Assembly: GCA_026745465.1 (NCBI GenBank)
Contig: JACYXH010000087.1
Span: forward strand, 2,127,811-2,191,810
Length of the DNA: 64,000 nt
Direction: 5' to 3'
Source: Lota lota
Taxonomy: Eukaryota; Chordata; Actinopteri; Gadiformes; Lotidae
The notes beneath the pieces were generated by a model. The model had not been told where the DNA came from, ran no database searches, and saw only the letters and a list, made by a program, of their open reading frames with translations. Below are positions 7,701 through 25,700 of this stretch, one piece after another (within the stretch, counting starts at the first letter, position 1; every line of letters starts with the position of its first letter). Position numbers and translations under genes: made by a program.

Positions 7701-10700
7701 TGGCGAGAAGTTTATTTTCTAAATGTTGATAGAGGGCGTGGACTAGCTCAAACAGTGTTTGGTTTTCTTACATAAAAGGTAGGGTCAGTACTCACCAACT
7801 CACTGAACAGCGGGATTGGCAGTCTCTTATGAAGGACTGGCATACTGTCAATACCACACACACACACACACACACACACACACATACACACACAGACAAT
7901 TATTTATAGAACAACCAAGGTAATCAAACATACACAGTGAAGCAAATGTAAACGTGTTGGTAAGATGATAATACACTTATGGTTATCCTATGGTCCAATG
8001 GGTATGCTATGACTTAGACAAGGCCTACCGGCCAATCAACAGTCTTGAAGACCCCCGTATTGGTGGTCTTACACACACACGCATACCTTGGCTTGGCCCG
8101 TTGGTGTTTGCTGGTGGCGCCATCTTGATCGCAGCTCTGAAACGAGTCACGGGTCAATTAAAAATATTTATTTATTTATTGAAAATGCCTACGTCAAAAA
8201 TCCCAGGTAAGACAGGGAAGGGAAGAAAGACAAGACGAGGAAGATAAGGGAAAGAATGAGGGAGGAGAGGAAGTAGAGAGAAGAGAGAAGATATTTGGAG
8301 AAAACGGGTTTGAGAAAGAACATATAGGAAGAGCTTGGTTGAGCTTCTGAATGTCATGCCAAACATGAAGTTACAACTTCCACCTCCGAGAGAACAGTCG
8401 GTCTAACTATCATAGTACTATCATTCTACCAGAGATAGTTATGATTCTACCAAAGATAGTTATGATTCTACCAGAGATAGTTAACATTCTACCAGAGATA
8501 GTTGTCATTCTACCAAAGATAGTTATCATTCTAGCAGAGATAGTTATCATTCTAGCAAAGATAGTTATCATTCTACCAGAGATAGTTATCATTCTACCAG
8601 AGATAGTTATCATTCTACCAGATAGCTATCATTCTACCAGAGATAGTTATCATTCTACCAGAGATAGTTATCATTCTACCAGAGATAGTTATCATTCAGA
8701 GATAGTTAACATATTACCAGAGATATCCCTGAAATTAAAATCTTTACCATTTTGGCATGATGAAAACCTTAACTAACCAAAAAAATTTTAAAGGAAAGGA
8801 AGATCGGAGAAAACAGGCCTAGTAATGTTCCTTACATTAGAAAGCTGCACTCTGACTCTGTTGTAGGCCTTGAGCCAGCGCACCCGGGATAGGGAGCAGG
8901 GCAGAGAACTATCTTCAAACCTGGAACAACAGAGTAGTTACATGACTTTAAAAACGATCACACAAAAACACAAGCTCAGCCATGCAGAGTCCAATCATAA
9001 GTCCTTATCTTGCCAATCACCAGAACGTACTGAAATGGTAACGGTATCGGGAGTGCCAACTCACCTGCCATTGATCTGAGGCATGTCACACATATCCATG
9101 GCTGGACTGACCAAGAGGGCAGAGGAGTCCTTCAGGTCTTTGTTGGAACCAGCTAGTGAATGCTGTCCCGTCTCAGCCTCCTCTTCTTCTCCCCCAGGTT
9201 GCCCTGGCAACGGTGGTGGGCTGTGAGGAATGTGCTCAGGACTAACCTGAGAGCTGGCCTGGCTGGAGTTTCCTAATGAGCTGAAATGACCGTCTCCTGG
9301 ACTGCAGTCGGGTCAAGAAATACAGGGTTTATGTTTAGAGGTTTATGGACCAAAATAAATACATAGTTGCCGTTTTAACCAAAACTAGTAAAAAAGGTAG
9401 CTTCTATACATCCCAAGAAGAAAGTTAAGGTTGGCCTGTCTTGGAGAAACGGCATCAACATGTATCCATGGAAGCAAAAAGTATCAGGAGATTGACTCTC
9501 TGGATCAATAAAAAGTAGATCATAAAAAGGTTATTAAAACTTTATAACTATATACATAAAAAATCTACAGATGATGGAGTTTGAGGACAAAGGGGATAGT
9601 AGGCTACTATGTGGTTCCGGTTTTATACCAGGAATTAATACTATTATACTTTACACATTATATCATTACTATTTATTAGCTGGGTGCTATTATGTCTCAA
9701 ATATGTTACATAGTGTTCCTTTGTTAATGGCCCAATAAATTCCTGTTTATTCCCTTTCTGCTACAATAACATTGTTGTCTTAGGAATGAAGGACGTGAAC
9801 ATTGATTTATAACTGAAACAGGGAACATCACAGCATGAAAGGGTGGAGAAAGGAAATGGCCTAAAGCACAACAGAACAGGGGAAGTGCTATACACCAGAG
9901 GTCCTTGTCTACAACAGGTAGAGTATTATACTAGCCTTTGTACTGACTCCTTCTTGAACTCCTCTGTGTAGTGGTCAGAGGTCTCCTCCTCGGTTACTTG
10001 AGCTGATGAGACTAAAACTTCTTCAGGAAGTAAGGGGACAAAACGTTCTACGAGGGATAAGGAGGGGAATCGTGACAACGCTGAGCGCGTTTTGGATGTT
10101 TCTGCTGGCTCTTCTGTGTCACTAACATCTGCACTGCCGGTCTCTTCTGAACCAGAAGACATTTCCTCTGCCTCTAGTTGGCAGACCTCGTCTGTCAGTT
10201 TAGGACTTCGAATTTGAGGTTGGCTAGTAACTACTTGAGGAGTTCCTTCAGCTTTCAAAGAATCTGAGGCTCCGAACATAGAGCCGAGTTTCATTCCAAA
10301 CACAGATGAACTGTGTGATGGGTCCTCCTTCCCAGTAGATTTTTCTTCCTGGAAGATTCCAGCGGAGAGGTTTTTAAACCCTGAGAAGAGGCCGCCATCT
10401 GACTGGAGTGGCTGTGGAGTCTTTGCAGCAAGGACTGAGGAAGGACTGGTGGAGAAAAGAGAACCCAGAGAGGAAGCGCCCTCTGCTGCTCCAGAGATGA
10501 ATCCAAACTTGGGAGCAGTCAGCCTTGGAATGTCAAACATGCCTTTGGATTCTGGAGCTGGAGGTGCATCAGCCTCGGGTTCTGGAGCCATCTGTGGTCC
10601 AGCTTTGGACTCCTTGGACAGTCCAACAGATTCATTGCGTGCTTCTTCTTCTACCGACTCCGTAACATCACATTCTTCTGTCACCGTTTTATCTGCTCGT

Positions 10701-22700: not shown

Positions 22701-25700
22701 GTATTATTTGCTCTTTGGGTAAGGATTGCCCTTTTGATTCAGTTTCATTTAAACTTTCAGGGGTGTTTGGCTCAGCATTTGGCTCAGTTTGACCGCTGGG
22801 CTTGGTCAACGTAACAGTGGGTGGGGATTGAGATTGTATTGGCTGTTGGGCTGAGTCAGATGGGGTCACCTTGAAGAGGTTAGAGAACCATCCAGTGTCT
22901 GCGTGCCCTTTGGGGACACTTTCAAAGAGTACAGCACGACTCGGAGACGGAGTTCTAGCTGGGCTGGGTGAGGTGCTTTTGGTATTATCTTCACCAGAGG
23001 CAAACTTAAGAATCCCAGAGAACACGCTTCCTTCGACCTTGGGTGCCTGAGCTGAGACTTTTTCAGATGAGAACATTTTTAGTTTGTTGCCTAAAAATGA
23101 GTCATCTGCAGATTTTGATTCGACCTGCTGAGAGGTTTCACCAGATGTTGACATGAGGGAGGACAGGGATTTTTTGAAAGGGCTGAAGAATCCTGTGTCC
23201 TCTGTGCTACTTTCTGGCTTTGGTTCAGAAACTGCTGAACTCTTTCTTTGTTGAATATCAGGTAGTTCACCAGATGACTCGATTTCAGGAAGGAGCTCCA
23301 CCGAAACACTCCTTGAACCTGGTAGAAGATCAACCGAACCACTCCCTGAACCTGGTAGAAGATCGACCGAACCACTCCCTGAACATGGCAGGAGTTCCAC
23401 TGACCCACTCCCTGAACCTGGCAGGAGTTCCACTGACCCACTCCCTTCCCCGGATAACTGTTGTTCTGCATGTGAGGCTGACCTCTTAAGACTCCTGCCT
23501 CTATCTAAAGACTCTTGCCTGGATTCAGCACTTGTGGCAGAATAACCTCTTTGCTCTGCGGGCTGGGGGGATGATTCTGGGGAAGTAGGAGCACTAGAGA
23601 AAAGCCTCATGGGACTGAGTCTTCCTAACACAGATTCAACCACTGAGGTTGGTTGGTTCGAGGTGGACTCACTGCCTTGTGAGCTTTGGCTAGCTTCAGC
23701 TTCAGCTGGACGACTAGAATCAGAGGAATGAAAAGGCAACAAGGACTGAAGAGTGAACTTCTTTTCAATTATAGGCTCTTGGGAGGCAGGGGGTACTATG
23801 GCAACAGGAGGGCTAAAGCCGCCAGATTTGGGAATAAAAGAAAGAAGCCTTGAGAGGCCATTCTCGGTTGTCGACGGAACTTGAGAGGTATTTGTTTCTG
23901 TAACAGCGCCCTCTGTAGCCTCGCCGCTAGGTTTAGAAATGAAGGAGAGTAGTTTTGAAATGCCAGAATCTGTTTGATGTGGTACAGGGGGAGTAGACGG
24001 AGATGTGCTCAATGCTTCTGGAAGCTCAGCAGTAGGCTTTGAACATGTAATCGTGCTGAATAAGGAGCTCATGGCATTCTTTACCCCTGCTATGCCTTGT
24101 TCAACAGTACTCTCCTCCTTCACTTTGACCTGTTCCTGTTCATTTGTTTCCTGTTCATTGCTTTTAGCTTCTCCCTCTGGTTTAGCATTTAATGTATCAG
24201 CTTTGACATCCATTGGTAATTCTGGGAGTTTTCTCCTTATGGGTTTAGGCAGAGACTCATAGTTGTTGATTTCCTCCTCTTTAACTGCCAGGTATTCAGA
24301 CACTGAATGAACCAAGTTCTCTAGCTCTCCCATCGCATCTATATATTCATCTATTGGTTCCTCAATCACTCCATCCTCTCCCTCCACAGACAGCATACGA
24401 TCTTCTCCATGGCCTGTTCTCCCCTCACCCCAATATTCGTGCCCAACATATCCTTCTGGATAGTAGTAACTTTCGTACTCAAATGTTACATCACCGTCAA
24501 TAAAAGTCAGATCGTCCAGCTCCTCCTCAGATCCAAATGAGTATCGCATCTCGTCTGAACTGATTGAGCCATACTCGCTCCTGACCCTGTGGGCCTCCTC
24601 CCTGGCAACCTCCTCCCTGGCAACCTCCTCCCTCTGAAAGGCAGCGTAACTCTCAAGCGTTCCCTCCAATGCAGTTTTGGCCCATAGCCTGGTCTTGTAC
24701 AGTAGACCGTCTCCGGCAGTTTGTCGTCGTAGCTGTTTGACCGAGGGAATTATGTCAATTTCCGGAGGGGATGATTCATCCTCAAAACTGCCAGCCTCCT
24801 TGTTCACCAACCGTACTTCTCCACTGCCAAACGCAGTTGTCCTTCCGCCAGGTAGACTTGTGTCATAAAAGCAGTCTGGATCTTCTGGGGACATGTCACA
24901 CTCTACAGTCTGATAAAACCTGCTCCCTTTCGACTCACTGCGGCTGTTGTTGATGTGGTAGATAATGCTTTTTTCATCATCATCCCACTTCTTCTGATCA
25001 TCATCCAAGTAATCGTCCAAAACACCTGAATCAGGTACCTTGTACCTGTTCTCCCAGTCCTCTACTCCCATACCAGAGTCCACAGGAGTCATTCTGAAAC
25101 CAATAGTGCTTGACCGCCTGGGCACAGACAGGAAACAACATAATGTAGGGCCATGCAGAAAGGATGCAAAGAAAGAGAAAAGGCATTTTAGAAAAATATA
25201 TAGTCAAATACATGAAAAAAGCATGAAAGAAAAAACTGAAAGTCAACATCTGAAAGTGATAGATGCAAAAACAACATACTTTATGAACATGTTTATGATC
25301 ATCTTTACAGAAATGTTATATAACACCTTTAAAACGGCTTTGAGATGTTAATGTAGTTGTGTGTGTGTGCACCTGAAGAAAGACACATGCACACTGCATG
25401 CACACACTCTAATGAACAAACATTTTTATTTAAGATTATGCAAAATTGTACTTTTGATGCGCCAAATTAGGGGGACTATGCTAGTGTTAACGGTCGTACA
25501 CAGTTCATTGAATATAGATAAATACAAATGCATGTGTTTGTGTACAAATGTATGTAGGCACATGCATATTTACATATGTACGCATGTATATACACAGGAA
25601 TGTATGTATGTACGAAAGTATGTATGTCACACATTTACCTGCCGGTCCTAGTTTCCCTTTCATCCAGCTCAAAGCTCTGCAGGGAGTCTCTGGACAGGGA

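Follow-up and report, generated by a model that had tools for sequence, protein, structure and literature searches.

A candidate giant, frame-neutral coding cassette in an unc13b gene of Lota lota

RESULTS

The unc13b gene and its two giant open frames

The DNA analysed here, referred to as the window, is a 64,000-nucleotide (nt) stretch of the 575-Mb Lota lota assembly, positions 2127811-2191810 of contig JACYXH010000087.1 (C87). Its minus strand carries an unc13b gene of the Munc13 family, running from an ATG exon at 37866 past the left edge, and among the linker exons of this gene lie two very long open frames which are candidates for a giant coding cassette. The first coding exon (37845-37866, beginning MSLLCVR) has a donor scoring 11.3 and exits in phase 1. 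The C2A-domain exons, recognised with PDB 2cjs_A and the Pfam C2 family, are at 32300-32271, 30368-30269, 30078-29961, 28608-28485 and 28305-28232, and the exon model continues with linker exons at 26723-26681, 26094-26062 and 25843-25639, the last of which exits in phase 2. Beyond the giant frames come a linker exon (9065-9301) entered and left in phase 2, an exon at 8836-8920 which, by its position, carries the putative ub-type calmodulin site, and the remaining exons to the window edge (87-8136), which encode further linker, C1, C2B and the start of MUN as judged from PDB 7t7c_A and the exon table. A microexon of six bases (Ala-Met, 6180-6185) is found on the same strand in the linker before C1. 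The 22 ordinary exons modelled give a joined reading of 810 codons to the left edge without a stop, replacing the 797 codons of the original prediction, a note made earlier from the letters of this DNA.

The assignment of the flanking exons to a Munc13 with C2A and C1-C2B-MUN, made in the original prediction, was borne out by the PDB matches. The C2A domain matches that of Munc13-1 (2cjs_A) with an expect value (E) of 3.6e-64, placing it with the Munc13-1/ubMunc13-2 type, and the C1-C2B-MUN part matches the Munc13-1 construct 7t7c_A at E 6e-226, MUN being covered only up to the window edge. Identity to rat Munc13-1 in C1-C2B-MUN is 79% over 399 residues. In a tree of this region the window gene and a second genomic copy on contig C522 split from two unc13a-type loci (C92 and C685) and rat Munc13-1 with support 100. 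This grouping agrees with the name unc13b; the tree comprises these five taxa, a fifth unc13-type locus (C221) and any Munc13-2 or unc13c sequence being outside it.

The two giant open frames run from 25203 to 20167 (1,678 codons) and from 20368 to 9926 (3,480 codons) on the minus strand. Both fall in the interval from the end of one linker exon (25639) to the start of the next (9301), with the C2A and linker exons before them and the calmodulin and C1 exons after. Exon A, or the first part of one giant exon, spans 20359-25117 (1,586 codons; acceptor 7.96, donor 11.27). Exon B begins at 20269 and has at least 3,440 codons; it ends at 9936, where the sequence AAAG/GCTAGT (slash at the cut) is common to the C522 copy, or at 9948 as first proposed. 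With the latter end the exons are 4,759 and 10,322 nt long and sum to 15,081 nt, a multiple of three. Spliced together, A and B contain no stop in 5,026 codons of the coding frame and 421 and 196 stops in the other two. The gene including both then reads for 5,837 codons to the window edge without a stop; ending B at 9936 gives an insert of 15,093 nt and a reading of 5,841 codons. The presence of the frames, their joint neutrality and the possibility of a product of more than 5,800 residues thus stand as proposed. The further claim that either exon alone would shift the frame holds with the usual neighbours, where a reading with A alone meets a stop after 1,855 codons and one with B alone after 283, but not in general: A alone exits in phase 0 and so could join other phase-0 exons, for example that at 8136, in frame.

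Evidence that the giant frames are coding

All six tandem arrays detected by Tandem Repeats Finder inside the frames have a period that is a multiple of three. Outside them this is true of 16 of the 38 arrays of period at least 4; the 12 arrays of period shorter than 4 all lie outside. Differences between repeat copies and their consensus are enriched for silent changes. For a 33-nt repeat, 10 of 13 differences are silent where 3.9 are expected (3 of 2,000 simulations reach this value), and for a 42-nt repeat 20 of 42 are silent where 13.2 are expected (46 of 2,000). Base composition within the frames varies by codon position.

The protein is also conserved in the C522 copy. The most conserved block of the cassette (19346-19825, minus strand, EDPEWYQQW...APMDLT...) aligns over 159 codons at 55% identity, with proportions of synonymous (pS) and nonsynonymous (pN) differences of 0.89 and 0.26. 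Four other blocks show 39-50% identity, pS of 0.67-1.0 and pN of 0.33-0.42; the five were picked because they could be aligned between the two copies. Neither the ~5,000 codons of the window frames nor the ~3,280 codons of the C522 frame contain an in-frame stop. Judged from the sequence, the giant frames are real coding sequence under purifying selection, with silent sites near saturation. Open frames arising by chance are ruled out by the second conserved copy, by pN being lower than pS and by the period-3 repeats, in keeping with the original prediction.

The second unc13b copy

The C522 copy was found in a whole-genome search with the A/B junction region (42% identity, E 2.8e-52), and 70 kb around it were fetched. 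The order of its exons is C2A, an LDD linker exon exiting in phase 2, a frame of 3,336 codons, a phase-2 linker exon and a calmodulin-site exon that aligns with its window counterpart; after this come a separate frame of 839 codons and then C1 and C2B. The giant frame is single and unbroken, and sequence matching exon A (residues 8-424 and others) as well as exon B (1551-1948, 3895-4075 and 4875-4914) is found in it. With a phase-2 acceptor at 25966 or 25972 and the AAAG/GC donor the C522 insert would have a length of 9,849 or 9,843 nt, each a multiple of three; joined in phase 2 at either end, it reads without a stop into the next linker exon.

Outside the conserved blocks the two inserts are only 24% and 27% identical over two long BLAST alignments, and in C1-C2B-MUN the two genes are 80% identical. 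By this last figure the pair is old, and could stem from the teleost genome duplication. Genome homology searches, in which just the top candidates from an initial pass are scored, gave matches to the N-terminal 411 residues of the C522 insert at E <= 0.01 on C522 and C87 only. With its core of 144 residues, searched to E 10, the same two contigs were matched, with one further hit at E 2.5. For the loci on C92, C685 and C221 the presence of a giant frame was addressed by these homology searches alone.

The 839-codon frame of C522 (1878586-1881102) contains NFQRILREKR near its end, which weakly resembles the calmodulin segment of bMunc13-2 (E 0.04). No counterpart of this frame was found in the window or in its 30-kb left flank, and isoforms may have been shared out between the two unc13b genes.

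Proposed splicing of the cassette and competing explanations

The reading we favour, with a probability of roughly 60%, is that of a giant conserved cassette spliced between the phase-2 exit at 25639 and the phase-2 entry at 9301, so that the gene would make either an ordinary ubMunc13-2 or a giant Munc13-2. The coding nature of the cassette, its conservation in two gene copies and its frame neutrality with the sites named follow from the comparisons above; that it is included in mRNA, expressed in neurons and used as a scaffold we infer. Splice scores were calculated with approximate position matrices. On these the acceptor of A at 25117 is sound (7.96) and in the right phase, and its donor at 20359 is strong (11.27). 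At the 3' end both copies share AAAGGCTAGTA just before the stop which, cut as AAAG/GCTAGT, gives a GC donor exiting in phase 2 in both. The donor favoured in the original prediction, 9948, is weak, and we prefer this site 12 nt downstream, which the two copies share.

Several observations weigh against this reading. In the window, donor 9948 scores 2.2, the non-standard GC donor 9936 scores 1.45 and acceptor 9301 scores 2.5, although ordinary exons of the same gene have donors down to 1.0 and acceptors down to -2.4. The C522 copy has phase-2 acceptors of 0.9 (25951), 0.7 (25966), -3.1 (25972) and -4.8 around the start of its frame; the highest-scoring AG there (25998, 5.2) lies in a different phase, and the strongest donors towards the end of the frame (35294, 11.2; 35147, 10.2) exit in phase 1. 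The C522 sites lowered our confidence slightly. Since an 11-mer is also shared by 59 of 3,000 pairs of 160-nt segments drawn at random from the two inserts, the common 3' end is only modest evidence. An AATAAA follows the in-frame stop in both copies, as would fit a terminal exon, and the A/B junction could be an intron gained by intronisation or the mark of a missing base.

The AATAAA signals and the weak 3' splice sites are what would be expected of a composite terminal exon, spliced after C2A, ending at its own stop (9926-9928) and polyadenylated, to give a scaffold of C2A plus a giant tail without C1, C2B and MUN. In the window such signals follow the stop at 9751 and 9677, in C522 there is one directly at the stop, and a similar ...RLV tail precedes the stop in both frames. 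We nevertheless consider this unlikely, as the shared 11 nt span silent codon positions and read in both copies as a phase-2 donor that matches the phase-2 next exon. Furthermore, AATAAA or ATTAAA is not uncommon here, occurring 24 times between 25640 and 5000 and mostly inside the giant frames. An alternative promoter in the 521-bp intron before exon A, giving a giant N-terminus that lacks C2A, much as in bMunc13-2, is less probable again. An ATG stands early in exon A (residue 9), the C522 frame is without a strong phase-2 acceptor, and passages in two papers describe bMunc13-2 as an isoform of Munc13-2 that has a long N-terminus of its own (PMC7017353, PMC5830537), but the exon A acceptor is sound and in the right phase, and upstream of it the frame is open only to 25203. 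That the frames are degenerating pseudo-exons without function, as the strong divergence of the two copies outside the conserved blocks might suggest, is very improbable given the complete lack of stops in both copies and pN well below pS in all five blocks.

A different question, compatible with any of these explanations, is whether A and B are one exon of ~15.18 kb in which the 89 nt between them (20270-20358) are coding and the assembly or allele is short of one base. This is possible, at slightly under even odds. The frame is unbroken in C522, and frame-B codon usage across the 89 nt scores 6.2 bits relative to intron, where 97.5% of 405 intron segments score below 4.5. The acceptor at 20269 scores just 1.1, and as an intron 89 nt would be shorter than all 21 modelled introns, which are at least 144 nt long. 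On the other hand, a donor of 11.27 stands at the frame change, and of the six minus-strand donor sites scoring at least 11.0 in the 64 kb five, including 20359, are modelled exon ends (the plus strand has 15 such sites). Alignment of the region to C522 scores 37 when spliced and 33 when read through, and the frame-B peptide of the 89 nt has no C522 match above shuffled sequences, 255 of 500 of which reach its score. The description of the cassette as two exons therefore holds in that the frames can be joined as two; it is weakened by the unbroken C522 frame and by the chance that the gap is an assembly error. 

Content of the insert

S, P, E, Q, T and G are abundant in the insert, which is mostly of low complexity apart from the conserved block of ~160 residues; aromatic residues are commoner at ~1-300 and 1500-2000. 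The hydrophobic motif [FLIM]S[GMNR][LIFM][FL] occurs 16 times in exon A, and recurs in C522 in forms such as LSGLLKF, SMFGG and GGMFGG. In exon B the PxDLS-like pattern [LVIMPA]D[LFM][ST] is present in 17 copies where 1.6 are expected. This pattern was chosen after reading the sequence, and the test was repeated with all residue-class words and no preset pattern. The top five-letter word in A was then hhsGh (12 against 0.27 expected), the top four-letter word in B was hDhs (17 against 1.5) and the top five-letter word in B was a collagen-like repeat. Five diverged repeats of ~100-135 residues, in which PAN-VK-TLDMS and SVG-PLVVE pieces occur, are also present in exon B. The collagen-like stretch within exon B is encoded by the 42-nt repeat, in nine copies at 12402-12789.

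In neither A nor B did any Pfam family reach its cut-off, and no known domain was found in the insert among Pfam, NCBIfam (prokaryotic) or PDB sequences. In Pfam, the one search bearing on this, there was no sign of an origin from a mobile element. No relatives of the insert were confirmed in viral and prokaryote collections, a result that says nothing because the canonical C2B control also found no match in viral contigs. A single-sequence AlphaFold2 model of 290 residues had a mean predicted local distance difference test score of 31 and was uninformative.

Neighbouring features

A plus-strand gene at 41271-56018 with RUN (50165-50419) and SH3 (55821-56018) regions is of RUSC type and is transcribed away from unc13b; the frame at 41271-42905 is probably part of it. 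Its domains are those expected of RUSC2, the neighbour of UNC13B in human, in keeping with the name unc13b. Nothing else in the genome closely matches its SH3 region (the best further match is 46% over 53 residues, E 5.5e-6), so that there is no shared-neighbour evidence for the C522 copy. Also on the plus strand, an intact frame at 59744-60742 (325 residues from the first Met) reaches 24.2 bits with Pfam TAS2R, where the cut-off is 22.2, and resembles a bitter taste receptor. A 42-bp minisatellite at 49302-49778 (11.4 copies at 96%) has two minus-strand open readings of 179 and 165 codons and looks non-genic.

DISCUSSION

If the cassette is included, the product would be a giant Munc13-2 of ~5,840 residues to the window edge which keeps C2A, C1, C2B and MUN. 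The Munc13-1 construct 7t7c_A has 1,154 residues and the window match stops at 422, hence ~732 more are expected and the full product would have ~6,570 residues. The insert, mostly of low complexity, would form a long tether that carries a single conserved block rich in aromatic residues along with numerous short repeated motifs. It would most likely act as a multivalent scaffold in which C2A and the short motifs hold active-zone partners. The order of C2A, motif-rich tether and C1-C2B-MUN suggests a priming factor on a long leash; the C1-C2B-MUN end would prime vesicles while held on this very long, multivalent connection.

Comparison with known proteins places the gene closest in order to ubMunc13-2 (UNC13B), which has the same succession of C2A, linker, calmodulin site, C1, C2B and MUN but lacks the ~5,030 extra residues that the window gene has between linker exons. 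In bMunc13-2 there is likewise a long region before C1, and in mammals this N-terminal region binds ELKS1 and calmodulin according to passages in PMC5830537 and PMC7017353. The window cassette differs in keeping C2A, and the C522 copy has its separate 839-codon candidate, to which the rat peptide matches at E 0.04. Against the window, the calmodulin peptide of bMunc13-2 (Table 3 of PMC7017353) gave no match better than E 0.25. The cassette as the bMunc13-2 N-terminus is thus ruled out for the calmodulin segment, the part compared.

Piccolo and Bassoon are giant presynaptic scaffolds, with zinc fingers, PDZ and C2 domains. A Pfam scan, the only search for such domains, found no family at its cut-off in A or B, and a giant Munc13-2 would differ from both in carrying the Munc13 priming module. 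The giant neuronal exons of ankyrin-B and ankyrin-G are very large, in frame and inserted in a conserved protein; this arrangement, in a different gene, is similar to that proposed for the unc13b cassette. Human RefSeq may carry a long isoform of UNC13B of ~4,300 residues, NM_001371189, in which case mammals would have the same kind of giant insert and databases would already contain the exon. The titles and abstract openings of the literature surveyed did not name a giant isoform of Munc13-2 or UNC13B, nor was this accession found in the UNC13B literature checked, most subscription papers being outside both. The passages of PMC10616205 on UNC13B concern an antisense transcript at this gene.

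A more speculative extension, which we think improbable, is that the giant Munc13-2 is a priming scaffold of ribbon synapses whose PxDLS-like motifs would bind the CtBP-type B-domain of RIBEYE as those of Piccolino do. PMDLT occurs twice in the window and C522 has PVDLS at an aligned place. The loose pattern is in excess, but other counts weigh against a CtBP reading. A stricter CtBP pattern is found 4 times against 1.8 expected (shuffle maximum 8) and P.DL[ST] twice against 0.26 (shuffle maximum 3), neither in excess over the shuffles. C522 has only 5 copies of [LVIMPA]D[LFM][ST] (0.8 expected) against 17 in the window, and the repeated motifs of LDMS type belong largely to the window gene. 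VIDFT, IVDLT and TIDLT of the insert also resemble SUMO-interacting motifs.

The background for this idea comes from passages of several papers. Piccolino is described as binding RIBEYE through multiple PxDLS-like motifs (PMC6539712), and such motifs are reported in Bassoon and Piccolo (PMC11242772). The Munc13 of mouse photoreceptor and bipolar cell ribbons is given as ubMunc13-2 (PMC7660176), and photoreceptors are stated to use a RIM2 variant without the Munc13-binding domain, and recruitment of ubMunc13-2 is unexplained by RIM2 (PMC11536687). Given that the same kind of source reports modest photoreceptor effects of Munc13-2 loss in mouse (PMC11536687, PMC6539712) and an apparent absence of Munc13 family members from inner hair cell active zones (PMC7699581), the ribbon idea is offered as a hypothesis. 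If it were true, a single molecule would combine a seat on the ribbon (or arciform density) with vesicle priming, and the placement of Munc13-2 at photoreceptor ribbons, where the RIM2 variant has no Munc13-binding domain, would be explained. The insert also offers concrete peptides for assays of binding to RIBEYE/CtBP at the ribbon synapses of the retina.

As a vesicle-priming protein Munc13-2 has been studied extensively. Should its giant form be produced, models of its placement, spacing and clustering at active zones would have to be revised, and antibodies or tags directed at the shared domains would have scored it together with the ordinary ubMunc13-2.

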